This document shows positions 3,665-60,841 of a stretch of 64,000 nt of DNA, piece by piece. A program made the translations under genes and the position numbers. Numbering within the stretch: the stretch's first letter is position 1; the number at the start of each line of letters is the position of its first letter. Under the pieces are notes generated by a model. The model was not told the origin of the DNA. It saw only the letters and a list, made by a program, of their open reading frames with translations, and searched no databases. The stretch lies in NCBI RefSeq assembly GCF_000697965.2, contig NZ_CP015881.1, forward strand, positions 1-64,000. Direction: 5' to 3'. The DNA comes from Ensifer adhaerens. Lineage in GTDB: Bacteria; Pseudomonadota; Alphaproteobacteria; Rhizobiales; Rhizobiaceae.

Positions 3665-3670
3665 CTGAGC

Positions 3671-3710
3671 AAAAGAAAAAGGCTTCCGAACGACTAGCGC
3701 TGCGGAAACC
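3671..3710 (-). terminator. Rho-independent terminator of the ctRNA
   Basis: On the minus strand an 8-bp stem (arms 3703-3710 and 3681-3688, one G-U pair, 14-nt loop) is followed by a T-rich run corresponding to 3671-3680. It ends the counter-transcribed RNA just before the repB stop codon. Confidence 0.8.
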
Positions 3711-3725
3711 CTTCTCTCGTGTAGC
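3672..3725 (-). ncRNA. ctRNA (incA-type antisense RNA) between repB and repC
   Basis: repABC plasmids encode a small antisense RNA in the repB-repC gap that down-regulates repC and causes incompatibility. Here a consensus promoter (TTGACA, 17-bp spacer, GATTCT) and an intrinsic terminator bracket about 54 nt on the minus strand. The 5' end is inferred as about 7 nt after the -10 box and has not been measured. The RNA is complementary to the repC leader. Confidence 0.85.
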
Positions 3726-3731
3726 AACTAG

Positions 3732-3760
3732 AGAATCCCATTTCCGCGAATCGGTGTCAA
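3732..3760 (-). promoter_or_regulatory. ctRNA promoter
   Basis: On the minus strand the -35 box TTGACA (3755-3760) is separated by 17 bp from the -10 box GATTCT (3732-3737). The perfect -35 and ideal spacing suggest a strong constitutive promoter, as expected for a copy-number-control antisense RNA. Confidence 0.85.
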
Positions 3761-3819
3761 GAGTTTTCAACGTCGTTTCGGCGAACGGATTTCTTTTGCC
3801 TTGGAAAAGGTGAAGAAGA

Positions 3820-5088
3820 ATGGATCGTGGGATTGTCACGACGCCCTTCGGGCGGCGGTCGATGACGCTTGGGATGTTGGCACACCAACTTTCCAGCGCT
3901 CCGGCCGTCGACGACGGGAGCGTCGACAAGTGGAAATTGTTTCGAACGGTGTGTGCCGCCAAGACAAGCCTTGGGGTTTCCGACCGTTCGCTTGCGGTGC
4001 TGAACGCACTGCTGTCCTTTTACCCAAAGAGCGAACTCGACCCGGCCGCCGGCCTCGTCGTGTTTCCGTCGAATGCGCAGCTTTCGCTCCGTACGCACGG
4101 CATGGCCGAGACGACGCTGAGGCGGCATCTGACGGCGCTTGTCGAGGCTGGGCTCATCCTCAGGCGCGACAGTCCCAATGGCAAGCGTTACGCCCGACGT
4201 GACCGCAAGGGCGCGATCGGCCAGGCCTTTGGCTTCGATCTCGCACCGATGCTTGCACGGGCGTCCGAGTTCGCAGCGGAAGCGGCACGGCTGGAAGCGG
4301 ATCGTCGCTACCTGCAGGTGATGCGCGAACGTCTGAGCCTTTGCCGGCGCGACGTCGTCAAGCTCGTCGAGCTCCTGCGCCAGTCCGATGTCCTCCAAGC
4401 GGAAGAAGCGGAAACGCAGTGCCAGGCGGTCTACACGGCACTGTCGCGCAAGCCGCTGATCACCGAAGTGGAGCGCGCCCTCGCCGTTTTGTCGGCACTC
4501 CGCGACAATCTGACTAATTACCTGGAAAACTTGCTGAAAACGCAGAATACGGCTGCCAATGAACGCCAGTATGAGCGGCACATACAGAGTTCAGAATCCG
4601 ATTATCAATCTGAATCTGAAAACGCTTGTGAAAGACCTGAAGCGGCATTTTCGGATCTGGCTGGCACCAAGACGTCATGCACTCCGGATGATGATACCGT
4701 TGCAGGCAGTGCAAAGTCGCCCGGCCTTTCTCGCCTTCACGATCATATCGGCGCGCTGCCGGTGGTGCTGAAAGCCTGCCCGCAGATCCGTGACTATGGA
4801 CCAGCGGGGCGAATTGGTAACTGGCGGGACATGTTCCTAGCCGCAACCGTTGTCAGGACGATGCTCGGCGTCAGCCCGGAGGCCTACGACGAGGCGTGCA
4901 CGGTGCTTGGTCCCGAAACGACGGCAACGGTACTCGCCTGCCTTCTTGAACGGTCCGAGCACATTCATTCGGCCGGGGGCTATCTGCGGGACCTGACGCG
5001 CCGCGCGAGAAACCAGACATTCACCGTGTCGGCGATGCTGTCGGCGCGCTTGCGAGCCCAAGCCGGAGTGGTCGCCGTGAGCGGATGA
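3820..5088 (+). CDS. repC: RepC, replication initiator of repABC
   Basis: A 422-aa RepC initiator, within the usual 400-440 aa range, with the conserved N-terminal domain (TLGMLAHQL, then a winged-helix-like region around 80-130 with AETTLRRHLTALVEAGLI). A variable linker at about 235-300 corresponds to the most AT-rich DNA of the gene. RepC acts in cis at an origin inside its own coding sequence. The start has a purine-rich leader (AAGGTGAAGAAG). Expression should be controlled by the ctRNA just upstream. Confidence 0.96.
   Translation: MDRGIVTTPFGRRSMTLGMLAHQLSSAPAVDDGSVDKWKLFRTVCAAKTSLGVSDRSLAVLNALLSFYPKSELDPAAGLVVFPSNAQLSLRTHGMAETTLRRHLTALVEAGLILRRDSPNGKRYARRDRKGAIGQAFGFDLAPMLARASEFAAEAARLEADRRYLQVMRERLSLCRRDVVKLVELLRQSDVLQAEEAETQCQAVYTALSRKPLITEVERALAVLSALRDNLTNYLENLLKTQNTAANERQYERHIQSSESDYQSESENACERPEAAFSDLAGTKTSCTPDDDTVAGSAKSPGLSRLHDHIGALPVVLKACPQIRDYGPAGRIGNWRDMFLAATVVRTMLGVSPEAYDEACTVLGPETTATVLACLLERSEHIHSAGGYLRDLTRRARNQTFTVSAMLSARLRAQAGVVAVSG
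4505..4625. other. Candidate oriV: AT-rich segment inside repC
   Basis: This stretch of repC is clearly richer in A and T than its surroundings and contains three AATCTGA motifs, at 4507-4513 and as an overlapping pair at 4607-4619. In characterised repABC plasmids the origin lies within repC at an AT-rich region. Placement here is by that analogy and by base composition only. Confidence 0.5.
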
Positions 5089-32978: not shown

Positions 32979-33219
32979 TCCCGCGTAGCCGGGCACTTGG
33001 AAAGGTTCGGCAAGTCTGTCCCGATCGTGCTGCCGGCGATGCGTCGCCGACAGCGTGAGGCGAACCGGACAGGTGGGGCGCTCGACTGCCATTGCGTTGG
33101 CCATGGCGGGAAACCGGAAAAACCGCCATGTTCACCATCCCTGTCGCGTCCGGTTGACACTGCCCGCACACCATTGGGTAAGCCGTCTCGGGCCGGAAAG
33201 TTCCGTCGGAGCGGAGGCT

Positions 33220-37573: not shown

Positions 37574-37797
37574 GGTTCAACCTCAGAGTTTGCCGGGATC
37601 GATTTTGACCACCAGGGCTCGGCTGCCAGCAAGCGCGGCCGAGTTCTTGAAAAAAATCATGGGCCTCCCTTGATACCGGAAAACCGAGCTCCTATCTGCC
37701 GCCTAACCCGCTGGTCCGGGCCCCTCTGGCGAGAGCTTCGGCACTCTTGCGATGTCGGACCTTATTCCGACAACATGTGCCGATTGGGGACCCGTCT

Positions 37798-41371: not shown

Positions 41372-41488
41372 CATGAGTATTACAGACAAGTTTATTTCTG
41401 CGTGCTAAGAGACACGGCGCTCGATTGGTCCCTTGGCCATAGATCGCCTCTCGGCAGGGGTGCGCACGCCGCGCCAAATCGAAATTAT

Positions 41489-42031
41489 ATGATCGGATCA
41501 GACACAGTGGTCGACATCGATACGCGCCATCAGGTCTATTTCGCCAACCGTACTGCCCTGGTCGCCTATGCCACGCGGATCGTCGGATCGCGGGAAACGG
41601 CCGAAGATATCGTGCAGGAGGCCTTCATTCGATTTGCGCCGGCAAACACCGGCAATCCGCCTTCTGCCGGACCGTCCGGGCTTTCGCTCGCGTATCTCTA
41701 CAAGATCGTCCGCAACCTGTCCCTCGACCTCTTGAAGCGCCGCAAGATCGAAGCGCGGGAAGAGCAGAGCGAGCCGCCGTTCTGGTCGATGCCGATCGAG
41801 GTGCCGACGCCCGAGGACATCATTCTCGTCAGCGACGAAATCAGACGCATCTCCGGCATTCTCGAAGACCTTCCCGAGGAAGTGCGGGTCGCGCTCGAGA
41901 TGCACCGTTTCGGCGGCTACACCCTCGAAGAGATCGCCGCCCATCTCGACATCTCCGTCGCGACGGCGCACCGCCACGTGCGCGCCGCCATGATGCGGGT
42001 TGCGACAACGCTTGCGGGTGGGGCCTCCTAG
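41489..42031 (+). CDS. FecI-like ECF RNA polymerase sigma factor
   Basis: A 180-aa ECF sigma factor: region 2 (about 10-75, VGSRETAEDIVQEAFIRF) and region 4 (about 115-172, LEDLPEEVRVALEMHRFGGY, then EEIAAHLDISVATAHRHV). It belongs with the iron-starvation FecI group by context: fecR-like anti-sigma and STN-bearing TonB receptor genes follow. It should drive the two matching promoters at 42050 and 43231. ATG at 41489 gives normal length; a GTG at 41402 is the alternative. Confidence 0.92.
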   Translation: MIGSDTVVDIDTRHQVYFANRTALVAYATRIVGSRETAEDIVQEAFIRFAPANTGNPPSAGPSGLSLAYLYKIVRNLSLDLLKRRKIEAREEQSEPPFWSMPIEVPTPEDIILVSDEIRRISGILEDLPEEVRVALEMHRFGGYTLEEIAAHLDISVATAHRHVRAAMMRVATTLAGGAS

Positions 42032-42049
42032 AATTTCAGGGGTCCCCGT

Positions 42050-42079
42050 GTGAAAAAAAATCGGGTGCTGGTCGTCTTT
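42050..42079 (+). promoter_or_regulatory. FecI-type promoter upstream of fecR
   Basis: A 30-bp element made of GTGAAAAAAAATC (-35 region) and GGTCGTCTTT (-10 region). It is 27/30 identical to the element at 43231-43260 with no gaps. Placement before fecR and before the receptor gene is that expected for promoters read by the FecI-like sigma factor. The fecR start lies about 117 bp downstream. Confidence 0.75.
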
Positions 42080-42196
42080 ATGACAGAGCGAAAGTACCAC
42101 GGAAGCGTCCCGCTTCCCGGTGACGCCGCTTGACGGGGTTGGGGGCTACAGAAACAAAGTGCTAGGGCGTCGAACATCCAAGCGGCAGGCAGGGCT

Positions 42197-43195
42197 TTGA
42201 CCAAGGACAACCACATATCGGAGGCGCTGCTCGAAGAGGCCATGGATTGGTTCCTCGAGCTGAAGGCGCGCCCGAACTGTCGCGACACGCAAGCCCGGTT
42301 CCGCGCCTGGCTGGGCCAGTCGGAATTGCATGGCCAAGCCTGGCAGACGGCGTTGCGGACCTGGCAGCTGCTCGGTGAGGTGCCGCCGGTGCACGAGCAT
42401 CTATGGCGTGGGGCAAGGCCGTCCGTTTTCGTCGAGCCACCGGTCCGCCAACGTCGCCGGATGGGAACGGGCGGCTTGGTCGCCGGCGTGGCGCTGGCGC
42501 TTGCTGCCTGCCTCGTCCTCTTCGTCTCCCTGCCGTCGCTTCTCGTGTGGTGGCAGGCCGATCACGTGACCGAGACGGCGCAAAACAGGACGATTACGCT
42601 TGCGGACGGGACGATCATCGAAATGGGCGGCGGCAGCGCCATCGCCACCGACATCAGCGCCGGCACCCGCCATGTCAGGCTGCTGAAGGGCGAAGCCTAT
42701 TTCAACGTCGCCCGCGATCCCTCGCGTCCCTTTGTCGTTGAGGCGGGTGGCGTCGAGGTGTCCGTGCTGGGGACTGCGTTTGATGTGCAGCTGGCGAGCA
42801 CGGAGACGACCGTCGAGCTGGCGCACGGCACGGTGGCCGTCTCCTATAGTGCAAACGCGCACAAGCAGAATTTCGAACTGGCCCCGGGAGAAATGGCGAC
42901 GGTGAGCCATGCGACCGGCGCAGTCTTGCGAAGCGCGATCGCGGCGGATGATATCGGCGCCTGGCGAAGCGGCAGGATGTTCGTCAATGATGTCACGGTC
43001 GCCGCTGCCGCCGAGCGGCTGCAGCGCTACCATTCCGCCTGGATTTCCATTCCGCAGCCGGATCTGGCAGGGCGGCGTGTAACCGGCGTCTACGATCTGA
43101 AGGATCCGGATCGGGCGCTCCAGGCGCTGGTGCAGCCTTTCGGCGGCAAGGTACGCGAGGTGACCCCCTATGGCCGCATCCTGACGCGGTTTTAA
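42197..43195 (+). CDS. FecR-like anti-sigma factor / signal transducer
   Basis: A 332-aa single-pass membrane protein: cytoplasmic N-terminal DUF4880 region that holds the sigma factor (about 8-60), one transmembrane helix (about 95-120, VAGVALALAACLVLFVSLPS), the periplasmic FecR domain (about 128-220) and a C-terminal DUF4974-type domain that contacts the receptor's STN domain. Start codon TTG at 42197 behind GGCAGG. Works between the FecI-like sigma factor and the TonB receptor. Confidence 0.93.
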   Translation: MTKDNHISEALLEEAMDWFLELKARPNCRDTQARFRAWLGQSELHGQAWQTALRTWQLLGEVPPVHEHLWRGARPSVFVEPPVRQRRRMGTGGLVAGVALALAACLVLFVSLPSLLVWWQADHVTETAQNRTITLADGTIIEMGGGSAIATDISAGTRHVRLLKGEAYFNVARDPSRPFVVEAGGVEVSVLGTAFDVQLASTETTVELAHGTVAVSYSANAHKQNFELAPGEMATVSHATGAVLRSAIAADDIGAWRSGRMFVNDVTVAAAAERLQRYHSAWISIPQPDLAGRRVTGVYDLKDPDRALQALVQPFGGKVREVTPYGRILTRF

Positions 43196-43230
43196 TTGGA
43201 GTAAAAAAATCAGGAAAAAATCGCGCGCCG

Positions 43231-43260
43231 GTGAAAAAAAATCCGGGGCCGGTCGTCTTT
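43231..43260 (+). promoter_or_regulatory. FecI-type promoter upstream of the TonB receptor gene
   Basis: Second copy of the 30-bp element: GTGAAAAAAAATC, then GGTCGTCTTT, differing at only three spacer bases from the copy at 42050-42079. It ends 52 bp before the receptor start, leaving room for a leader. Confidence 0.8.
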
Positions 43261-43312
43261 GGTTGGAAACGCGCGCCCGCAAGGCCGCGTGGAATGCCGA
43301 GACGGGGGTAAA

Positions 43313-45619
43313 ATGCGTTCGCCGAAATGCCGCAAGGGACATCTGAAATTCGATACGGGACGTCGCCGTGAAAGACGGCGCCTGCTGACGACGACGGCGA
43401 TCGCCGCGTTTTCCTCCCTCGCGCTGATGCCCGTTTCCACGGCCTCCGCCCAGCAGACCACGTCGCGCGTCAGCAACGCCCGCAGCTTCGACATCCCGTC
43501 GCAGCCGCTTTCCACCGCGCTCAACGCCTTCGGGCGGCAGTCCGGCCTGCAGGTGACCCTGGCGGCTTCCACCTCGCAGGGGCTTCGCTCGGCGACGGTC
43601 AGCGGAACGATGACGGCGGACCAGGCGCTTGCCCGGCTTTTGTCGGGCACCGGCATTTCCTACAGGATATCGGGCGGCACCGCGCTGGTCGGCTCGGCCG
43701 TGTCGGCGGGTAGCAGCGCTGCTGTCGCTGCGGACGGAGCAACGGTGCTCGATCCGATTTCGGCCTTCGGTGCCGGGCCGCTCGGCGCCGGCGAGATCGT
43801 CATCTCGTCGGAAGACCTGAAGCGCAAGAACCCCGCCAACATTGCCGACGTGTTTTCCGGCGAGCCCGGCATTTCGGTCGGCAGCTCGTTGCCGATGTCG
43901 CAGAAGGTCTACGTCCACGGCATCGAGGAAACCAGCCTCGCCGTGACGATGGACGGCGGCCGACAGAACAACAAGGTCTTCCACCACAACGGCACCAACC
44001 TCATTGACCCCGGCCTGCTGAAGGCCGTCAACGTCGATGCCGGCGTTGCGCCGGCCGATGCCGGTCCCGGGGCGCTTGCCGGCGCGATTGCTTACGAGAC
44101 GATCGACGCGCGCGATCTGCTCGATGGCGACGGCTTCGGCGGCTTTGTCACGTCGAGCTACAATTTCAACAGCGACACGGTGACGACCGGGATCTCCGCA
44201 TACGGCATGCGCGACGGGCTCGAGTTTCTCGGCTACTTCAATTTCGGCAACGGCAACGATTTCACCGCCGGCAACGGGCAGGACGTGGAAGGCACCTCGA
44301 CAGACGTGTTGAGCGGGCTTGGCAAGCTTGCCTACGAGTTCGACAGCGGCGACCGTTTCGAGATCAGCCACGACCGCATTCGCGACGACGCGCCGCGTCC
44401 GTTTCGCGCTAATATCGGCTTTATCGACGGACGCCCACCATGGGAGCCGCGCGTGCGCGACTACATGCTCGACCGGCAGAACACGGTGTTTACCTATACC
44501 GACAGCACGCCGGAGGGCTGGTGGGATCCAACGCTGATGCTCGCCTACTCCAGGACGGAGGTCGAAATTCCGATCATCCTGCCGCCGCGCCTCAACATTC
44601 CGCCCTATCCCGCCACCGGCACCACGAGCAGCTTCAACGGCAAGTTCGAGAACAAGTTCTCGTTCGACATGGGTAGCGTCATTGCCGGCGTTGACTTTTA
44701 TGACGACAAGGCTGACCTCGACGACATGTTCGATGCCAGCACCGAGAAGGCGCGCAATGTCGGCATCTATGCCCAGGCCCGGCTCGAGCCCTGGGAGAGA
44801 ACGCGGCTCTCCTTCGGTGCGCGCGGCGACACGCAGCAGTTTACCGGGACGACGGGAGAAGAGTGGAACAATTCGGGCCTCAGCGGCAACGTCTCGGGCG
44901 AGTACGACCTCATCGAGGACCTGCTGACCGCCAAGGCGGGCTATTCGCACGTCTGGGCAGGCATTCCGCTCGCCGAAAACTTCATCATGAATCCCAACTG
45001 GAACTATGGCAGCGGTCCGAAGCCGGTGACGGCGGACAACTATATCCTGGGCCTGGAGGCGAACTACAACGACTTCACCGTCGAGGGCAGCGTCTTCCAG
45101 ACCGATATCGATGACGCGCGCACGCCGCGTTATGCGGTCACGCGCGGGATCGAAGCGCATGACGTCCGCTCGCGCGGCTTCGAGATCGGCGCCGGCTACA
45201 GCTGGGGCGATGGCTTTTTCAAGGTGAAATACGCCAATATCGACGTCGAGATCGACGGCAAGCCTGCCGATTCTGATCTCGGCACCTATCTGGCCGCGCC
45301 GGCCGGCCAGATCATCACGCTGCAAGCGGTCCACACGCTGACGGACTGGGGCGTCACTTTCGGGGCCGACGCGGAAATTGCGCTCGACTACGACGACGTT
45401 GCCGACGGCAGCAAGCCCTTCGAGGGCTACCAGGTCTTCAACGCCTTTGTCGAATACGTGCCGCCGGAGCGACCGAACCTGTTGCTGCGCGCCGAACTGA
45501 AGAACATTTTCGACGAAACCTATTCGGACCGGGCGACCTACGGTCAGGAGTTCGGAACGGTGACGCCGCTCTACGAGCCGGGCCGTTCCTTCATCCTGAC
45601 CGCCAAGGCGACTTTCTAG
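43313..45619 (+). CDS. TonB-dependent siderophore receptor with STN signalling domain
   Basis: A 768-aa outer-membrane receptor: long basic signal peptide (core LLTTTAIAAFSSLALMPVS, cleavage after ASA), periplasmic STN domain (about 58-128), plug domain (about 160-270) and a 22-strand barrel ending in TAKATF. The STN domain marks it as a transducer that signals ligand binding to FecR. Lying directly before the siderophore genes, it is the best candidate for ferric-petrobactin-type uptake, though the plug has some similarity to haem-type receptors. The ATG at 43313 keeps the promoter at 43231 outside the gene. Confidence 0.92.
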   Translation: MRSPKCRKGHLKFDTGRRRERRRLLTTTAIAAFSSLALMPVSTASAQQTTSRVSNARSFDIPSQPLSTALNAFGRQSGLQVTLAASTSQGLRSATVSGTMTADQALARLLSGTGISYRISGGTALVGSAVSAGSSAAVAADGATVLDPISAFGAGPLGAGEIVISSEDLKRKNPANIADVFSGEPGISVGSSLPMSQKVYVHGIEETSLAVTMDGGRQNNKVFHHNGTNLIDPGLLKAVNVDAGVAPADAGPGALAGAIAYETIDARDLLDGDGFGGFVTSSYNFNSDTVTTGISAYGMRDGLEFLGYFNFGNGNDFTAGNGQDVEGTSTDVLSGLGKLAYEFDSGDRFEISHDRIRDDAPRPFRANIGFIDGRPPWEPRVRDYMLDRQNTVFTYTDSTPEGWWDPTLMLAYSRTEVEIPIILPPRLNIPPYPATGTTSSFNGKFENKFSFDMGSVIAGVDFYDDKADLDDMFDASTEKARNVGIYAQARLEPWERTRLSFGARGDTQQFTGTTGEEWNNSGLSGNVSGEYDLIEDLLTAKAGYSHVWAGIPLAENFIMNPNWNYGSGPKPVTADNYILGLEANYNDFTVEGSVFQTDIDDARTPRYAVTRGIEAHDVRSRGFEIGAGYSWGDGFFKVKYANIDVEIDGKPADSDLGTYLAAPAGQIITLQAVHTLTDWGVTFGADAEIALDYDDVADGSKPFEGYQVFNAFVEYVPPERPNLLLRAELKNIFDETYSDRATYGQEFGTVTPLYEPGRSFILTAKATF

Positions 45620-45729
45620 GGCGTCCGCGACCGCAACGGCCGCCGCCTCCAGGTGGCCGTTGCCTCAACAAGCGGAGGCGGCCACCCAAGCGCCGCCCAC
45701 GCAAGCGAAAGCCGAAACAGGAGTTCCAG

Positions 45730-46020
45730 ATGCAAGAAGCCACCACCCATTTTGCGACGGAAGACGGCCAGAAATACCTGACGCAGCTCTGCAAGCATTT
45801 CGCCCACAAGGTCGACGTCGAACAGGAGGGCCCGCGCGCCGAGCTCAGGTTTTCCTGCGGCACCGGCTACCTCCATGCCACATCAGAAGGCTTGAGCATC
45901 CGCGCCCGCTCACCCGATGACGCCAACCTTGCGGACACGAAATCGGTGATCGAAAGCCATCTTCTGCGCTTCGCGTTCCGGGAAGAGCCCGATCCGCTTG
46001 CCTGGCAGCCCGCCGGCTAA
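45730..46020 (+). CDS. DUF2218 protein
   Basis: A 96-aa protein of the DUF2218 family (TEDGQKYLTQLCKHFAHKVD; LRFSCGTGYLHATSEGLSIR). DUF2218 genes are often found beside siderophore uptake genes; the function is unknown. It lies 110 bp after the receptor, with a GC hairpin in the gap, and 102 bp before asbA. Confidence 0.9.
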   Translation: MQEATTHFATEDGQKYLTQLCKHFAHKVDVEQEGPRAELRFSCGTGYLHATSEGLSIRARSPDDANLADTKSVIESHLLRFAFREEPDPLAWQPAG

Positions 46021-46122
46021 GCGAACCGCTCGCAAGCTAGTTCCGACAAGAAAATTCAATGTGTTGGTCGAAAGCGCCCAACGCAATTGCGCGGCTATGC
46101 GTGTCGCGTGCCGAGGATCAGG

Positions 46123-47907
46123 ATGCAATCGTCTAGGCAAATAGCAGAAATCGCCACCTTTCAAAGCTTCGCAAACTGCTACCTGCGCGAAGTCAATCCG
46201 GGCATCCGGGCCATGCATCGCGCCGCAGGCGGCGCCGTCGATTGCGTGGAATGGTCTCTTCCCAGGCAGCAGATGATCCTGCGCGCCGAGGTGACGTCGC
46301 CGTCGCTCTGCGGCCCACACCATTTCGGCAGGGTCTGGGGCAGGGGCGTGTCCGACGCCACCTGGCGCCAGATTGAACTGATATCGGCCCTCCATATCCT
46401 GGTGCACGAATGCTACCGCCAGGTCGACGAGGCCAAGGCCGACGTTTTGCGCGGCTTCGAGCTCGAACTCTTGATGCGCGTGCTCGAAAGCTACCAGCAG
46501 ACGGCGCTCTACATCGACAGGGCCGCGCCGGAGCCGGCGGACGGCGACCATTTCATCGAAGCGGAGCAGTCACTCGTCTTTGGCCATTGGCAGCACCCGA
46601 CGCCGAAGAGCCGCCAGGGCATGACCTATTGGCAGCAGGAAAGCTACGCGCCGGAACTGGGCGGCCAGTTCAAACTGAACTACTTCGCGGCAAAACGCGG
46701 CGATATCAGGCACGATTGCGCGCGCGCGGTTGCAGCGCCCGAGATCGTGCGGTCCCTCGTCGGGCCGGATGCCAACGGGATCGCGCTCGGCGACGACGAT
46801 TATCTGTTGCCAATGCATCCGCTTCAGGCTGAAGCCCTGCTGCTTGATCCCGATATCCGCGGCATGCTGGGGGAGGGGCGGCTGCGGCATCTCGGCCCCG
46901 CCGGCCCGGCCTTTACCGCGACCTCGTCGGTGCGCACGGTTTACGGCGCCGATGCCGGCTGGATGCTTAAATTTTCCCTGCCCGTGCGCATCACCAACTC
47001 CGTGCGTCTCAATCGTCGTCAGGAGCTCGAAGCGGGTGTCGCAATGGCGAAGCTGATTGACCGGATCGGTTTTGCCGAACGCTCGCGAAACTTCCGCATC
47101 ATTCAAGACCCCGCCTATATCACGCTCGAGCTGCCGGGACGCAGCGAGAGCGGCTTTGAAGTCATCCTGCGGGAGAACCCATTTGCGGACGGCGGCGGGC
47201 GGGGCGTCGTCACCGTCGCGGCCCTGACGGCCGATCCGCTACCGGGGCTGGTTTCGCGCCTCGAACGGCTGGTTCGGACGGTCGCCGCCCGCACGGGCGA
47301 GAGCCTGCTCGATGCGACGCACCTCTGGTTTCGCCGGTATCTCGATTGCGCCGTCGAGCCGCTGATCCGCCTCTATGACGACTACGGTATAGCGCTCGAA
47401 GCCCACCAGCAAAACAGCCTGCTGGACGTCGGCACCGGCTATCCGTCCGTCAGCTACTATCGGGACAATCAGGGCTTCTATCTCTCGGAGCGGTACCGCA
47501 GCCTGATTGCCGGCCATGTGCCCGAGACGCAAACGATCGCGTCCCTCTATTTTGCCGAGAGCGAAATTCGGGATCGCTTCGCCTATTACCTGATCGTCAA
47601 TCAGGTCTTCTCGGTGATCAGCCGCATGGGCCATGACGGGCTCTGCGATGAGAGCCTGCTCCTGCGCGAACTGCGCGCGCATCTCGAGCGCTATGCCACC
47701 CGAATGAGTGGCGCCGGGCGTGACTTTGCCCGTCACGTGCTCGACATGCCGACGATCGTCTCCAAGGCCAACCTGACGACGCGTCTCTACGACGTCGACG
47801 AACTGCAATCCAGCAACGCGCCGTCCCTTTATCGCCCCGTGCCGAACCCGCTGAGGGCGCCGGCTGTTCTGACTGCGCCGAGGACCGACCATGCCATTGC
47901 CTCTTGA
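46123..47907 (+). CDS. asbA: NIS siderophore synthetase AsbA-like (IucA/IucC family)
   Basis: A 594-aa NRPS-independent siderophore synthetase (B. anthracis AsbA is about 600 aa). Family motifs: HPLQAEALLLD, FTATSSVRTVYG (ATP loop), KFSLPVRITNSVRL and EAHQQNSLLD (active-site His/Gln region), plus the C-terminal FhuF-like segment. In petrobactin synthesis AsbA joins citrate to spermidine. Assignment to asbA rather than another NIS enzyme rests on gene order with asbB, asbC, asbDE and asbF. Start ATG at 46123 behind GAGGATCAGG. It overlaps asbB by 17 bp. Confidence 0.88.
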   Translation: MQSSRQIAEIATFQSFANCYLREVNPGIRAMHRAAGGAVDCVEWSLPRQQMILRAEVTSPSLCGPHHFGRVWGRGVSDATWRQIELISALHILVHECYRQVDEAKADVLRGFELELLMRVLESYQQTALYIDRAAPEPADGDHFIEAEQSLVFGHWQHPTPKSRQGMTYWQQESYAPELGGQFKLNYFAAKRGDIRHDCARAVAAPEIVRSLVGPDANGIALGDDDYLLPMHPLQAEALLLDPDIRGMLGEGRLRHLGPAGPAFTATSSVRTVYGADAGWMLKFSLPVRITNSVRLNRRQELEAGVAMAKLIDRIGFAERSRNFRIIQDPAYITLELPGRSESGFEVILRENPFADGGGRGVVTVAALTADPLPGLVSRLERLVRTVAARTGESLLDATHLWFRRYLDCAVEPLIRLYDDYGIALEAHQQNSLLDVGTGYPSVSYYRDNQGFYLSERYRSLIAGHVPETQTIASLYFAESEIRDRFAYYLIVNQVFSVISRMGHDGLCDESLLLRELRAHLERYATRMSGAGRDFARHVLDMPTIVSKANLTTRLYDVDELQSSNAPSLYRPVPNPLRAPAVLTAPRTDHAIAS

Positions 47908-49627
47908 TCTCAAGGGCCGCCCGGACGAGCGGGTGCTTCGCCAGCTCGTTGCCGCGCTGCTGTTCGAAGGTATCGTTGAGGCCAGCGAGCACACGGATGG
48001 GGATGTCACCACCTTCCACTGGTCGATCGGCGGCCGGCAGTTCCGCTGCCACGGCGCCATCGGCCCCTTTGGCCGGCTCCGTCTGGCTGCCGGATCGGTA
48101 GAGATGCGCGATGATGCGGACGGCTGGGTCGTGCCGCCGCTGGCGCAGCTGGTATCCGTCCTGCCGGGCAGCGGACCGACGCGCGGAAAGCTGCTCAACG
48201 AACTCACGCAGACGATCGCCTTCAGCGCCTGGAACGAGCGTCAGGTACCGGCGCGGCTGCGCCGCGCTTTGTCATTTGCGGAGTTGGAGGGAGCGCTTGA
48301 GGAGGGCCATCCCTATCATCCCTGCTACAAGGCGCGTACCGGCTTTTCCGTCGCCGACCATGCAGCCTATGGGCCCGAAATGGGAGGAGCGTTCCAGCTC
48401 GTCTGGCTTCTGGTGGCGCGCAAGCATCTTCGCTGCGCGATCCCCGGTGACGAGGATGCTTTCTGGGAAGCGGAACTGGGGGAGGAAACCTGGTCCGAAC
48501 TCCGGGCGAAGCGGCAGGAGCGCGGTCTTTCGCCTGATGCGTTCGGTCTCGTACCGCTGCATCCCTGGCAATGGCGCGAACTCCGTGAGAGACAGCTTTC
48601 TGGCTGGATCGCCGCGGGCGAAGCCCTTTGCCTCGGCCCGGCGGGGGACGGATACACGGCGACGCAGTCGGTCCGATCCCTGTTGAACCGGGACCGACCG
48701 TTGGCCGCGAGCGTCAAGCTGCCGCTCAACATCGTCAACACCTCGTCGCGCCGTACCCTTGAGCCGCATTCGGTCTGCACGGCGCCGGTGATCTCGCGCT
48801 GGATCGCCGAGATGGTTGCCGGAGATCCGGCCTTTCGCGACCGCTATCCGCTCACCGTCCTGCAGGAATATGCCGGCATCATAGCCGACAGCGACGGCCC
48901 TTTGGCCGGACAGGTCGCAGCCATCTGGCGCGAGAACGCGGAAGCGACGCTTGGCTCCGGCGAGGCCGTCATTCCCTTCAACGCGCTGATGATGGTCGAA
49001 GCGGACGGGCGTGCCTTCGCCGACGACTGGATCCAGCGCTTCGGCTTGATGCCCTGGATCAACCGCCTGATTGAAGTCGCGGTCCTGCCTGTCTGGCACC
49101 TGCTGGTGCACCATGGGCTTGCGGTAGAAGCGCACGGGCAGAACATGCTGCTCGTCCATCGCGATGGCTGGCCGGCCCGGCTGATCCTGCGCGATTTTCA
49201 CGAGAGCATCGAGTTTTCGCCGGGCTTTCTGCGCGCGCCGGAAAAGGCGCCGGATTTCCTGTCGCTCGAGCCGATCTACCGGGAGGCGGAGCCCGACCAG
49301 TTCTATTGGACGGACAACCTGGATTCGCTGCGCGAATTGGTGATGGACACGCTGTTCGTCTACAATTTGAGTGAGATCTCCCACCTTCTCGACCACTGCT
49401 ACAACCTGCCGGAAACGCTCTTCTGGCAGCGCGTTCAAACCGTGCTTGCCGCCTACGAGGCGGAGCACGGCGCGACGGAGCGGCTGGCGCAGCTCGGCTG
49501 CGACCAGCCCCGCATCCTGACCGAATCCCTGATGACGAGGAAGCTGCTCGCGCTCAAGCCGGAATACCACCACGAGGTGGCAAACGCCTTGGCCGCAAGG
49601 ATGCTTCAACGAAGGAGAAAGCCATGA
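47891..49627 (+). CDS. asbB: NIS siderophore synthetase AsbB-like (IucA/IucC family)
   Basis: A 578-aa second NIS synthetase with the motifs HPYHPCYKARTGFS, PLHPWQW, DGYTATQSVRSLLN, VKLPLNIVNTSSRRTL and VEAHGQNMLLV. In the petrobactin pathway AsbB adds the second spermidine or dihydroxybenzoyl-spermidine arm to citrate. Overlaps asbA at its start and asbC by 4 bp at its end, so translation is coupled. It is clearly diverged from the first synthetase and so is not a recent duplicate. Confidence 0.88.
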   Translation: MPLPLDLKGRPDERVLRQLVAALLFEGIVEASEHTDGDVTTFHWSIGGRQFRCHGAIGPFGRLRLAAGSVEMRDDADGWVVPPLAQLVSVLPGSGPTRGKLLNELTQTIAFSAWNERQVPARLRRALSFAELEGALEEGHPYHPCYKARTGFSVADHAAYGPEMGGAFQLVWLLVARKHLRCAIPGDEDAFWEAELGEETWSELRAKRQERGLSPDAFGLVPLHPWQWRELRERQLSGWIAAGEALCLGPAGDGYTATQSVRSLLNRDRPLAASVKLPLNIVNTSSRRTLEPHSVCTAPVISRWIAEMVAGDPAFRDRYPLTVLQEYAGIIADSDGPLAGQVAAIWRENAEATLGSGEAVIPFNALMMVEADGRAFADDWIQRFGLMPWINRLIEVAVLPVWHLLVHHGLAVEAHGQNMLLVHRDGWPARLILRDFHESIEFSPGFLRAPEKAPDFLSLEPIYREAEPDQFYWTDNLDSLRELVMDTLFVYNLSEISHLLDHCYNLPETLFWQRVQTVLAAYEAEHGATERLAQLGCDQPRILTESLMTRKLLALKPEYHHEVANALAARMLQRRRKP

Positions 49628-50904
49628 TCCGTATTGACGACAGGCTCTATGACGAGGCCTATTTCAGCGCCAGATCGGCCGAACTCGCAGCCGAGATCGG
49701 CCTTGGCGCACAGGACACCGGCCGCTACGCCGTCTGCTTCTCGGAGACGGTCGATTGGCTGGCTCTGTTCTTTGCCATCCGCAAGGCGGGCGCGAGCGTG
49801 CTGCCGATCCATCCGGGCACACCCTATCCGGCCGCGCGCAAGCTCGCGATCGGCGCCGGCTGCGACCGGCTGTTCTACAACAGCCTGACGGCCGAAGTTC
49901 TCGAACCATCCGACCTGCTTTCGGCTGAGGGCACGCTGTTGCAGATGAGCTCCGGAACGACGGGCGCGCCGAAATGCGTGGCGCGCAACTGGACGGAAAT
50001 CGATGCCGAGATCGAAAGCTATGTCGCCACCTTCCGCGAACCGGAGGACATGACGCCGGTCGTCGCCTGCCCGACCACCCATTCCTACGGGCTGATCTGC
50101 GGCATCCTGGTGGCGCTGAAGCGTGGGCAGACGCCGGTCATCGTCAACACCGCGAACCCGAAATATCTCCTGAAGGTGCTGCGCGAGATCGAACGGCCGC
50201 TGCTCTATTCCTCGCCGGCGATCCTGCACACGCTGGCGCGGCTGACGCCCGCGGGCGAACAGATCCACGCAACGATGACGTCGGGCACGCTGCTTCCCGA
50301 TCCGTGGTTTGCCGACATTCGCGCCAAGAGCCGGTTCATGTTCCAGCAATATGGCTGCTCGGAATCCGGCTGCATCGCCATCAATCCGGATGTGACTTCC
50401 GCCGGTGACATGGGCTTCGTCCTGCCGCATCTGATCGCCGCCACCGGCAACACCGCCGAGGACGCGGGTGAGATCGTCGTTAGCAACGGCGACGGCGCGC
50501 CGATCCACACGCGTGACCTCGGCTACCGGCGCGCCGACGGCATGCTGGTCTTCGTTTCCCGCCTGGACGACATGATCAACGTCTCCGGCCTCAACGTCTA
50601 TCCGAAAGACGTGGAGGATGCCGTCATGGCGATGCCGGCGGTCACCGACGCCGTGGCCTTCCGCAAGGCCGATCGTTTTGCCGGCGAGCGCGTGGCGCTG
50701 CTCTTTAGCGCCGAGGCGCCGGTGGCGCCGCAGGCCGTGCGCGAATGGTGCAGCCGACACCTCGCATCTCACCAGTTGCCGATGGAAATCCTGCAGATCG
50801 ATGCAGTTCCGCGCCAGGCGAACGGCAAAATCAGCCGCCGCGATGTCGCGGCCCGTCATCTGGCAGGCGAATTCAACAAACCGATTGCGGGAGCCGCATC
50901 ATGA
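49624..50904 (+). CDS. asbC: AMP-dependent aryl-acid ligase AsbC-like
   Basis: A 426-aa adenylating enzyme (AsbC of B. anthracis is about 410 aa). Phosphate-binding loop LLQMSSGTTGAPK (about 105-117), GCSESG, SRLDDMINVSGLNVYP and the catalytic Lys402 in QANGKISRR. In petrobactin synthesis it activates 3,4-dihydroxybenzoate and loads it onto the AsbD carrier. Four-base overlaps on both sides. Confidence 0.88.
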   Translation: MIRIDDRLYDEAYFSARSAELAAEIGLGAQDTGRYAVCFSETVDWLALFFAIRKAGASVLPIHPGTPYPAARKLAIGAGCDRLFYNSLTAEVLEPSDLLSAEGTLLQMSSGTTGAPKCVARNWTEIDAEIESYVATFREPEDMTPVVACPTTHSYGLICGILVALKRGQTPVIVNTANPKYLLKVLREIERPLLYSSPAILHTLARLTPAGEQIHATMTSGTLLPDPWFADIRAKSRFMFQQYGCSESGCIAINPDVTSAGDMGFVLPHLIAATGNTAEDAGEIVVSNGDGAPIHTRDLGYRRADGMLVFVSRLDDMINVSGLNVYPKDVEDAVMAMPAVTDAVAFRKADRFAGERVALLFSAEAPVAPQAVREWCSRHLASHQLPMEILQIDAVPRQANGKISRRDVAARHLAGEFNKPIAGAAS

Positions 50905-52211
50905 CCGAAAGCGAAGTTCTGGCGGCGATCGAGGCCGTCCTGACCGACAAAATGGCGCATGGACATATGGACGGCTTCGGCCTCGATGCCCGTCTCAACG
51001 AAGATCTCTATCTCGACTCCGTGCTGATCCTCGAAATCTTCCTCAATCTCGAGCTCGAATACGGGTTGTCGGTGCCGGAAGAGGCGATCGCAAAACGGGA
51101 GATCGAAACGGTCGCCGATCTCGTCGCGCTCTATGTGCCGAAGCCGACCGCCGCCATCGTGCCCGCCTTTCCGCTCACCGGCGGGACGACCGACGAGGGG
51201 GTGCACGGCGAGGCCTATTACGACATCAAGGTCCATTGCTTCGTCAGTTGCGTCTCGGACGGCCTGAAGCGAAACGGGCTCGATCAGCGGCCGTTCTATT
51301 TCGGTGTCTGGGACGCGAAGTTCGCGGTCAGCGAGCGTTTCGAGCTTCTCTATCATGCGCCCGATATCACCCAGGAATTCTTCCGTGGCTGGTTCGAGCG
51401 GCTTTACGGCGTTTCCGTCGTCGAGTGGTACGATCCGCAGCGCACCAAGCTCGACAACCTCGCAGTGCTGCTCGGGCTGATGAAACAGCGCGGCGAAACC
51501 GGCTCGGTCATGGTCATGCTCGACATGTTCCACCTGCCGGAGCGGGAGAACAAGTTCAACCAGAACCCCTTCCCGCACTATCTGATGCTGCAGGAAACGC
51601 CCGATCCCGACAAATGGTTCGTGCACGACCCCGACTATCGCTGGGAGGGCGAGATTGCCCGCGAGAAGGTCGTTCACGCCATCATGCAGCCTACTGTCGG
51701 CGGCGGTTATGTCTTCGACAATGCCGAGGCGCGCGCGCCGTTTGCCGAAGATCTGAGGGCCTATTTCGAGGCCTGCTTCGTCCGGGACCGCAATCCGCTG
51801 GTCGATGCCGTCAGAGCGATAGTCGCCGCGCATCTCGACGGGACGAACGGTGTCGCACTCACTGATCTCGGCGCCGCGGTGCGGGAACTGCCTGTTATCA
51901 CCGTCCGAAAATACGCCTATGAGCACGGCTTTGCCTTCTACTGGCGGGCGCTGAAGTTGCCGGCCGCCGAGTTCGAGGGCTGGTGCGGGGAGATCGAGGC
52001 GCTGGTTCAGTCGCTGAAGACGCTGCACTACGCCTGCATGAAGCTCGCCCAGACAGGCGATCGCTCGCTGTTGGGCGCCGTCATCGAGCGTCTCGACGAA
52101 GCCGACCGGCTGGAGACGAAGCTGAAGGTCAAGCTCGCAGAGGTCTTCGATCTCTGGTGCGATCTTGCCATCCCCCAGGAAATCCGTCCCTTGAAGAGAA
52201 TTGCGCGATGA
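50901..52211 (+). CDS. Fused aryl-carrier protein and AsbE-like condensing protein (AsbD-AsbE)
   Basis: A 436-aa protein. Residues about 1-80 are a carrier domain with the phosphopantetheine Ser40 in NEDLYLDSVLILE, equivalent to AsbD (about 90 aa). After a short linker (80-105), residues about 105-436 resemble AsbE (about 330 aa), which transfers the carrier-bound 3,4-dihydroxybenzoyl group to spermidine. In B. anthracis these are two proteins; here one open frame covers both with no stop or second start needed. Overlaps asbC and asbF by 4 bp each. Confidence 0.82.
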   Translation: MTESEVLAAIEAVLTDKMAHGHMDGFGLDARLNEDLYLDSVLILEIFLNLELEYGLSVPEEAIAKREIETVADLVALYVPKPTAAIVPAFPLTGGTTDEGVHGEAYYDIKVHCFVSCVSDGLKRNGLDQRPFYFGVWDAKFAVSERFELLYHAPDITQEFFRGWFERLYGVSVVEWYDPQRTKLDNLAVLLGLMKQRGETGSVMVMLDMFHLPERENKFNQNPFPHYLMLQETPDPDKWFVHDPDYRWEGEIAREKVVHAIMQPTVGGGYVFDNAEARAPFAEDLRAYFEACFVRDRNPLVDAVRAIVAAHLDGTNGVALTDLGAAVRELPVITVRKYAYEHGFAFYWRALKLPAAEFEGWCGEIEALVQSLKTLHYACMKLAQTGDRSLLGAVIERLDEADRLETKLKVKLAEVFDLWCDLAIPQEIRPLKRIAR

Positions 52212-53053
52212 GAGTTTCGCTCTGCACCATCACTTTCCGCCACCATCTGATCTCGCTCGACGAGATCGCCGCCTGGGCCGAGGCCAACGACTTCCAGGGT
52301 ATCGAACTCTGGGGCGCGCATGCGCGCAACCTCTCGCCGCGCGCGGATCGCAACGCCGAATGGCTCGACGGCTACGGCCTCTCGGTGCCGATGATCAGCG
52401 ATTACCTGCCGCTCGACGGTGACGTGGAAGCGCTGCGGCACAAGGCGGTCGAGCTTTGCCGACTGGCGCGCCGGTGGCGCACCCGCAAGATCCGCACCTT
52501 CGCGGGAAGCCGTGGCAGCCTTGACGTCAGCGCTGACGAGCGGCGGGAGATTGTCGAGCGCCTGAAGGAGATCTGCACCATTACCGCAAGCTACGGCATC
52601 CAGCTGCTTGTCGAAACGCATCCGAAGACGCTCGCCGACACGGCGGCCTCGACGATGCGGCTCATCGAAGAGGTGGACCATCCCTCCTTCGCCATCAATT
52701 TCGACACGCTGCATGTTTGGGAAGGCGGCGACGACCCGGTCGCCGTGCACCGTGCGATGAAACCGCACATTCGCCACTACCACCTGAAGAACATCGTCGG
52801 CCGGGCAGAACTTTCCGTCTTCGAGCCGGCCAATGTCTATGCCGCCGCCGGCAGCCGGCGCGGGATGACGCGGCTCTTCGAAGGCGCCGTCGACTACGAC
52901 CGTTTCCTCTCGGAAATTGCAGGTGACCCGCAGGCCGATGCGTCGCTGGAATGGTTCGGCAACGATTGCTTCGAGACCCTGCGTCGCGATCGCAGGCAGG
53001 TCCGCGAGGCGGTTGACGGGACCGAGCCGAACCGCCGGGCCGCCGGCCAATAG
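52208..53053 (+). CDS. asbF: 3-dehydroshikimate dehydratase AsbF-like
   Basis: A 281-aa TIM-barrel enzyme of the xylose-isomerase-like fold, the same length as B. anthracis AsbF (280 aa). Candidate metal ligands are E136 (VETHPK), D166/H169 (NFDTLH), H192 (HYHLKN) and E248 (EWFGND). It converts 3-dehydroshikimate to 3,4-dihydroxybenzoate, the aryl cap of petrobactin. Start at 52208 overlaps the asbDE stop. A different sugar-phosphate isomerase/epimerase function is possible but unlikely in this operon. Confidence 0.88.
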   Translation: MRVSLCTITFRHHLISLDEIAAWAEANDFQGIELWGAHARNLSPRADRNAEWLDGYGLSVPMISDYLPLDGDVEALRHKAVELCRLARRWRTRKIRTFAGSRGSLDVSADERREIVERLKEICTITASYGIQLLVETHPKTLADTAASTMRLIEEVDHPSFAINFDTLHVWEGGDDPVAVHRAMKPHIRHYHLKNIVGRAELSVFEPANVYAAAGSRRGMTRLFEGAVDYDRFLSEIAGDPQADASLEWFGNDCFETLRRDRRQVREAVDGTEPNRRAAGQ

Positions 53054-59821: not shown

Positions 59822-60841
59822 TCAGCCGTCCTTGTAGTAGTAGCTGTAGCCGTTGAGCGCCGGTGCGCCGCCGAGGTGGGCGTAGAGAACGCGAGACCCC
59901 TCCGGGAAGAATCCCTTGCGGGTAAGGTCGATCATCCCCTGCATGGATTTGCCCTCATAGACAGGGTCGGTAATCATCGCTTCGGTGCGAGCCGCGAGCC
60001 GGATCGCCTCGTTGGTTTCCTCTGATGGTACGCCATAGGCGGGATAGGCGTAATCGGGATTGATCACGATCTCGTCTTCGCGGATCGCCCTGCCGAGGCG
60101 AACCAGTTCGGCCGTCGAGTCGACGATCTTTCGAACCTGGGAGCGGGTCTGCTCGAGCGTGCCCGATGCGTCGATGCCGATCACCCGATTGGCGCGGTCC
60201 TGTGCGGCAAAGCCGACGATCATGCCGCCCTGGGTGGAGCCGGTGACGACGCAGACGACGATGTAGTCGAAGGTGAAGCCGAGCTCCTTTTCCTGTGCCG
60301 CCACCTCTTCGGCAAAGCCGACGTAGCCGAGTGCGCCATACTTGTGCACCGAGGCGCCGGCCGGGATCGGGTAGGGCTTGCCGCCGGCATCCTTAACCGA
60401 CTGGATCGCATCTTCCCAGCTCTTCCGAATACCGATGTCGAAACCGTCGTCGACGAGTCGACTGTCCGCCCCCATCAGCCGTGTCATCAGGATGTTGCCG
60501 ACGCGGTCATAGACCGCATCATAGTGCGGCACCCATTTTTCCTGGATGACGACGCATTTCATGCCGATCTTGGCAGCAGTGGCGGCGACCATGCGGGTGT
60601 GGTTCGACTGCACGCCGCCGATCGAGACCAGCGTATCGGCGCCCGAAGCGATTGCGTCGGGCACGATATACTCAAGCTTCCGGAGCTTGTTGCCGCCCGT
60701 GGCGAGGCCGGAATTGCAGTCGTCGCGTTTGGCGTAAATCGCGACCTTTCCGCCGAGCGCCGCCGTCAGTCGCGGCAGATGCTCGATCGGCGTCGGGCCG
60801 AAGGTGAGGGGGTAGCGTTCGAACTTCTCAAGCAGTGACAT
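59822..60841 (-). CDS. acdS: 1-aminocyclopropane-1-carboxylate (ACC) deaminase
   Basis: A 339-aa fold-type II PLP enzyme cleaving ACC, the plant ethylene precursor, to 2-oxobutyrate and ammonia. The PLP lysine is K52 in [11 protein letters not shown]. The two residues that separate true ACC deaminases from D-cysteine desulfhydrases are present with a one-residue shift: E296 (DPVYEGKS) and L323 (YAHLGG). Divergent from an Lrp-type gene, the classic acdR-acdS arrangement in Proteobacteria. Confidence 0.95.

Follow-up and report, generated by a model that had tools for sequence, protein, structure and literature searches.

The petrobactin-type asb locus of Ensifer adhaerens and the predicted triamine of its siderophore

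The asb locus and its described counterparts

Among described petrobactin-type loci, the closest to the one examined here is that of Sinorhizobium fredii CCBAU45436, in which suppressor and deletion mutants showed that a chrome azurol S-positive siderophore needs asbA together with RirA and the RseP-FecR-FecI cascade, and in which the siderophore genes run fprA-c14010-asbABCDEF-fatBDCE (PMC8822346). The same paper demonstrated activation by FecI and repression by RirA, named Ensifer adhaerens Casida A and Aminobacter aminovorans as further carriers, and called asb "rarely found in other rhizobia" in 2022; PMC12815270 builds on it and takes petrobactin as the S. fredii siderophore. The rhodopetrobactin cluster of Rhodopseudomonas and the mll cluster of Methylorubrum/Methylobacterium have in common with the locus examined here an AsbDE fusion, AsbF, DUF2218, a receptor and sigma/anti-sigma genes (PMC11317620). 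Here, we analyzed the asb locus at 41489-53053 of a 64,000-nucleotide stretch of E. adhaerens contig NZ_CP015881.1 (positions 1 to 64,000; hereafter the window). Its genes predict a petrobactin-type siderophore operon, a class assignment that does not include the linker and to which we give a probability of about 0.93. The locus is real, complete for biosynthesis and petrobactin-type, and its type is already described and ordinary within the genus; the one live question that it holds is the identity of its polyamine.

Open reading frame (ORF) listing, Pfam and NCBIfam placed fecI-fecR-fprA-DUF2218-asbA-asbB-asbC-asbDE-asbF in this order, all on the plus strand (Table 1). A reading made earlier from the letters alone (the sequence-only reading) had given the same genes, place, single direction and asbABCDEF order, but had overlooked the DUF2218 gene between fprA and asbA, and its "carrier/AsbE protein", both parts of which are there, is actually one AsbD-AsbE fusion. 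The overlaps that it claimed agree with the coordinates, being 17 bp for asbA/asbB and 4 bp each for asbB/asbC, asbC/asbDE and asbDE/asbF; the genes further upstream are separated by gaps of 165 bp (fecI-fecR), 117 bp (fecR-fprA), 110 bp (fprA-DUF2218) and 102 bp (DUF2218-asbA). None of the locus genes has an internal stop. The starts of fprA (43313), asbA (46123) and asbF (52208) are likely ones of our choosing, and the listed TTG start of fecR is provisional.

The Pfam and NCBIfam matches, together with PDB matches of AsbF to 3dx5 and of AsbB to 3to3, both from Bacillus anthracis, bore out the reading of the locus as an asb cluster of petrobactin type that follows a FecI/FecR/TonB-receptor set; the E-values of the Pfam and PDB matches (Table 1) leave no room for chance similarity. 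By Pfam, an extracytoplasmic function (ECF) sigma factor, a FecR protein and a receptor with an STN domain occur together, the combination of FecI/FecR cell-surface signalling. The acidic, His and Lys residues E136, H138, D166, H169, H192, K194 and E248 of AsbF, putatively of its active site, were invariant across 59 aligned AsbF rows, and the AsbD part of the fusion carries the motif LNEDLYLDS, present in 73 of 81 aligned rows. A PF04183 search of the 7.27-Mb genome returned two genes, asbA and asbB only.

Several points weigh against the class assignment. The AsbD part scores 62.3 bits on NF005798, under the cut-off of 100, and the AsbC model NF006167 is named only "acyl-CoA synthetase" and is not petrobactin-specific. 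The specificity of FprA is assigned by homology only: its PDB matches mix receptors for haem, enterobactin, pyoverdine, transferrin and others, and the NCBIfam models on which it scores best belong to haem-receptor families whose cut-offs it does not reach (top 162.8 versus 316.85). No exporter turned up, although no systematic exporter search was made, and the exact RirA motif is absent from the regions upstream of fecI and fprA in the window. The assignment rests on genes, so that the product in this strain is a predicted one.

Compared with S. fredii USDA 205, the locus has the same gene order from fecI to asbF, which also occurs in five Ensifer loci (L003-L007); AsbA-F are 80-87% identical, FprA 83% and FecI, at the same position, 78%, and the DUF2218 gene sits where S. 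fredii has c14010. In USDA 205, fatBDCE follow asbF directly, whereas the window locus has none there. The closest FatB relative found in the window's genome is 41% identical and lies on another contig (contig 1), and FatB relatives at 40-42% identity occur in all 16 genus genomes; the 61-70% given for FatBDCE of Casida A (PMC8822346) is at odds with the 41% found here for FatB. The earlier description of the locus as complete is thus fair for biosynthesis but does not extend to the fat inner-membrane importer genes, which are not beside it. Against asbABCDEF of B. anthracis, compared by description, the enzymes and their order are the same; here AsbD and AsbE are fused, FecI/FecR/TonB-receptor uptake and a DUF2218 gene are added, and no spermidine route is apparent in the host.

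The 11,565-bp locus, which is carried on a 1.74-Mb secondary replicon, matches a plasmid record with the label Ensifer adhaerens Casida A-T305 at 100.0% identity. AsbE was found in 16/16 genomes of the genus versus 0/14 control genomes, and AsbF likewise in all 16. In a genome-contig scan with the fusion protein, 151 stretches encoded a relative, and the best 80 of these 151 were used for locus comparisons with blastp thresholds of our setting. AsbD and AsbE lay on one ORF in all 80, a count that leans toward fusions because the query itself was a fusion. Relatives of the other genes were present as follows, misses including contig-end cuts and sub-threshold matches: AsbA in 78, AsbB in 79, AsbC in 79, AsbF in 58, FprA in 62, FecI in 57, FecR in 58, DUF2218 in 56 and all four fat genes in 54. 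The sequence-only reading had thought such a locus unexpected in rhizobia, which did not hold: the S. fredii counterpart and its mutants appeared in print in 2022 (PMC8822346), and that report, the 151 relatives and the genus-wide presence rule out rarity. Novelty of the AsbDE fusion is ruled out as well, since rhodopetrobactin, roseobactin and mll loci had already been described as having it (PMC11317620).

The least probable explanation that we weighed is that the cluster is silent or decayed and iron is acquired via other siderophores. In favour of it, expression in this strain is only predicted and no fat genes adjoin the locus, but all genes are open, the five asb genes overlap, AsbE and AsbF are kept throughout the 16 genus genomes, and the S. 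fredii counterpart is functional (PMC8822346).

Table 1. Positions of the locus genes and candidate sites in the window
Feature	Position	Strand	Evidence
fecI, ECF sigma factor, 180 aa	41489..42031	+	PF08281 E 8.1e-12, PF04542 E 7.3e-10 (longer ORF 41402-42031 scanned)
fecR, FecR-type anti-sigma/signal transducer, 332 aa	42197..43195	+	PF04773 E 4.4e-21, PF16220 E 5.7e-8
fprA, TonB-dependent receptor, 768 aa, with an STN signalling domain, putatively for ferric petrobactin	43313..45619	+	PF07660, PF07715, PF00593 (43259-45619 scanned)
DUF2218 protein, 96 aa	45730..46020	+	PF09981 E 4.1e-26
asbA, IucA/IucC-type NRPS-independent siderophore (NIS) synthetase, 594 aa	46123..47907	+	PF04183 E 2.5e-55, PF06276 E 8.2e-38 (46087-47907 scanned)
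asbB, NIS synthetase, 578 aa	47891..49627	+	PF04183 E 1.2e-69; best PDB match 3to3, E 5.5e-99
asbC, AMP-forming aryl-acid ligase, 426 aa	49624..50904	+	NF006167 551.5 bits (cut-off 513), with position and neighbours
asbDE, aryl carrier (residues ~1-80) fused to AsbE/DUF6005, 436 aa	50901..52211	+	PF19468 483.5 bits, E 3.7e-145 (50745-52211 scanned)
asbF, 3-dehydroshikimate dehydratase-like protein, 281 aa	52208..53053	+	best PDB match 3dx5, E 6.1e-76 (51983-53050 searched)
TGA-N9-ACA, candidate RirA-type site, one base off the motif	41374..41388	+	upstream of fecI; alignment
GGA-N9-TCA, candidate RirA-type site	43198..43212	+	just 3' of fecR; alignment
Conserved stretch GTGAAAAAAAATCC...CGTCTTTGG before fprA	43231..43262	+	alignment of 14 loci

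Polyamine supply and the predicted arms of the siderophore

Petrobactin, bis(3,4-dihydroxybenzoyl-spermidyl) citrate, carries spermidine arms. In the window's genome, homospermidine synthase was clear (PDB 4plp, E 6.8e-242), whereas the searches for spermidine routes gave no convincing match. For nspC, which encodes carboxyspermidine decarboxylase (CASDC), the one match in this genome, at 20.5 bits, was ruled out, the protein being LysA (477.9 bits); homology search of the genome returned no S-adenosylmethionine (AdoMet) decarboxylase; and no spermidine synthase in it was convincing, the SpeE-like matches lying far under equivalog cut-offs. Two of these, C2:433534 and C1:2148132, reached 135 and 44 bits versus the NF002956 cut-off of 472 and were rejected also because the genome has no AdoMet decarboxylase. 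A 367-aa saccharopine-dehydrogenase-like protein (L104) was considered as a spermidine enzyme and found no support. Because no spermidine pathway was found and homospermidine synthase is present, the arms in the window's strain are most likely homospermidine, and the caution of the sequence-only reading that another polyamine may serve is strengthened by this gene content.

We consider it probable that the "petrobactin" of E. adhaerens and S. fredii is unacetylated bis-homospermidine petrobactin (C36H54N6O11, calculated [M+H]+ 747.392), the asb enzymes using the only triamine that these hosts make themselves; species of the genus that bear nspC/CASDC would make spermidine or mixed forms (calculated 719.361 for petrobactin and 733.377 for mixed arms). 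No report of bis-homospermidine petrobactin was found in searches of open-licence papers on petrobactin in rhizobia, on petrobactin and homospermidine, and on rhodopetrobactin.

The same gene signature recurs in other asb-bearing genomes. Fifty of these were picked by hand from the 80 loci, with kinship uncorrected; at least 7 share identical coordinates with genomes of the genus set and look identical to them, so that the two sets are not independent. Homospermidine synthase was present in 49/50 at E 1e-30 (as two fragments in G057), the exception being Oceanimonas, which has nspC. At E 1e-30, nspC was found in 18/50, and SpeE at E 1e-20 in 3/50, the same three that have AdoMet decarboxylase. 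Neither nspC nor SpeE was detected in 29/50, which include S. fredii USDA 205, 5/7 Ensifer-labelled genomes, Rhodopseudomonas infernalis and both Methylorubrum.

That the product is canonical petrobactin, with its spermidine arms, is possible but rather unlikely; the bacterium would import the spermidine from plants or the medium, or make it by a missed route. Spermidine uptake, another spermidine route or an enzyme preference could each yield it, and further findings tell against a homospermidine linker. PF01564 matched above its low Pfam cut-off (22.9 bits) in 16/16 genus genomes, the best in the window's genome being 31.9, and the 866-aa fused protein C2:433534 passes the MFS (major facilitator superfamily)/spermidine-synthase subfamily NF037959 at 98.5 versus a cut-off of 40. 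Furthermore, nspC was found at E 1e-118 or better in 8/16 genus genomes, 3 of them above the curated cut-off, and these relatives are therefore probably able to make spermidine; AdoMet decarboxylase occurred in 2/16 (G009 and G013), and it is in these two that PF01564 scores highest, at 131 and 52 bits. Yeast extract-mannitol (YEM) medium contains yeast-derived spermidine. It was in YEM that the S. fredii siderophore was measured by chrome azurol S dye assay, and the S. fredii papers use the name petrobactin (PMC8822346, PMC12815270). Against canonical petrobactin stand the window's genome itself, which yielded neither nspC nor AdoMet decarboxylase, and the statement that most rhizobia, unlike S. 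meliloti, do not make spermidine (PMC13293326).

Within the genus, nspC went with the asb type, occurring in 1/9 genomes at AsbF identity of 84% or more and in 7/7 at 77-79% (Fisher p 0.0014). Because species relatedness was not removed, this correlation is not used as proof.

Homospermidine arms have a precedent in acetylated form. Synthetic rhodopetrobactin B has an acetylated dibutylenetriamine (homospermidine) arm (PMC12780827), and rhodopetrobactin B was detected in Rhodopseudomonas palustris CGA009 and Methylorubrum extorquens PA1 (PMC13251462). The printed mass of 831.4228 (PMC13251462) agrees nominally with the 831.4135 calculated for the diacetyl form, with an unexplained gap of 9 mDa. 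The lineages of these producers carried the homospermidine-only signature, as does the window's genome, in the relatives fetched and searched in place of the producing strains; R. infernalis is an imperfect stand-in because no AsbF relative was found in it at E 1e-10.

An acetylated rhodopetrobactin- or methylolanthanin-like metallophore is nevertheless a very unlikely product of the window locus. The AsbDE fusion and DUF2218 are common to those clusters, the DUF2218 protein being of the same family as mllG (PMC11317620), and their fetched relatives have the homospermidine-only signature in common; the window AsbE is 57-61% identical to those of six such loci (L062, L071, L074, L077, L079 and L082). 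The rhodopetrobactin and mll clusters have a GNAT acetyltransferase (mllH type), however, and no relative of that of the Rhodopseudomonas locus was found among the window ORFs at E 1e-3. Relatives of it occurred in 7/80 loci (the six above and L081), which belong to that Rhodopseudomonas, Methylorubrum, Methylobacterium and Boseaceae. The mll cluster additionally fuses B and C, whereas the window locus keeps asbB and asbC separate. AsbF is intact in the window, and 3,4-dihydroxybenzoate is therefore favoured as the aryl acid.

Rhizobial asb clusters have been named petrobactin clusters from genes, and the text consulted of the S. fredii papers does not report a product structure: "spermidine", "mass spectrom-" and "LC-MS" (liquid chromatography-mass spectrometry) have 0 occurrences in the main text of PMC8822346, as have "spermidine" and "mass spectrometry" in the available text of PMC12815270. 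As a gene finding the locus is ordinary because its type is already known from S. fredii, where it has been described and mutated, and the same text mentions E. adhaerens (PMC8822346). If the linker depends on which polyamine the host supplies, the compound behind many alphaproteobacterial "petrobactins" would not be petrobactin, which could affect receptor fit as well as siderophore piracy in soil.

Predicted operation and candidate regulatory sites

The locus would serve as an iron-starvation operon of an E. adhaerens-type bacterium. By homology, AsbF would convert 3-dehydroshikimate to 3,4-dihydroxybenzoate. By analogy with the petrobactin pathway, AsbC would activate this acid and load it onto the AsbD part of the fusion, the AsbE part would transfer it to the triamine, and AsbA and AsbB would couple the two arms to citrate. 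The ferric siderophore would re-enter via FprA, and the signalling domain of this receptor would increase expression by way of FecR and then FecI. RirA would repress the locus when iron is sufficient; activation by FecI and repression by RirA are predicted here from S. fredii (PMC8822346).

The RirA motif is TGA-N9-TCA, found in 5/10 RirA peaks in S. fredii (PMC8822346). Exact copies number 18 in the whole window versus 11.4 expected, a count reached by 4/100 shuffles. Most of 13 aligned relatives, though not L009, conserve the stretch that holds the candidate site upstream of fecI, and at the place matching the site 3' of fecR, 6/13 aligned relatives have the exact motif. Because neither window site is an exact RirA box, RirA control here is carried over from S. 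fredii.

The highly conserved stretch at 43231-43262 could be a candidate sigma-FecI (ECF) promoter or a leader or N-terminal coding remnant. Visual inspection suggests as one possibility a short coding leader that is in frame with fprA in some species and ends just before fprA in others.

Variant asb loci and other features of the window

Several variant loci were observed among the 80. A second asb type, with AsbF 76-80% identical to that of the window, occurs in L013-L017 and L034 (Ensifer, Sinorhizobium sp. A49 and a Rhizobiales isolate), where fecIR-fprA are not in the locus stretch compared. In the Azospirillum loci L078 and L080, AsbDE apparently precedes AsbC. AsbB and AsbC lie on one ORF, an mllBC-like fusion, in L038, L039, L042 and L043 (Shinella) and in L074 and L082 (Methylorubrum). 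Furthermore, at E 1e-10, 14/66 genomes searched have an asb cluster and no AsbF relative anywhere in the genome (reached via L012, L020, L022, L025, L029, L036, L051, L052, L053, L056, L062, L065, L071 and L079), which raises the question of where the aryl acid of these clusters comes from and whether it is 3,4-dihydroxybenzoate.

Elsewhere in the window, a 1-aminocyclopropane-1-carboxylate deaminase, an enzyme that lowers plant ethylene, is encoded near the siderophore locus at 59822-60841 (TIGR01274 555 bits, cut-off 392). Rfam matches at 3669-3822, 33062-33169 and 37708-37767 were, respectively, ctRNA_p42d and S-element, which together presumably mark a repABC-type replication region, the sRNA Atu_At1, and a terC RNA preceding a TerC protein.

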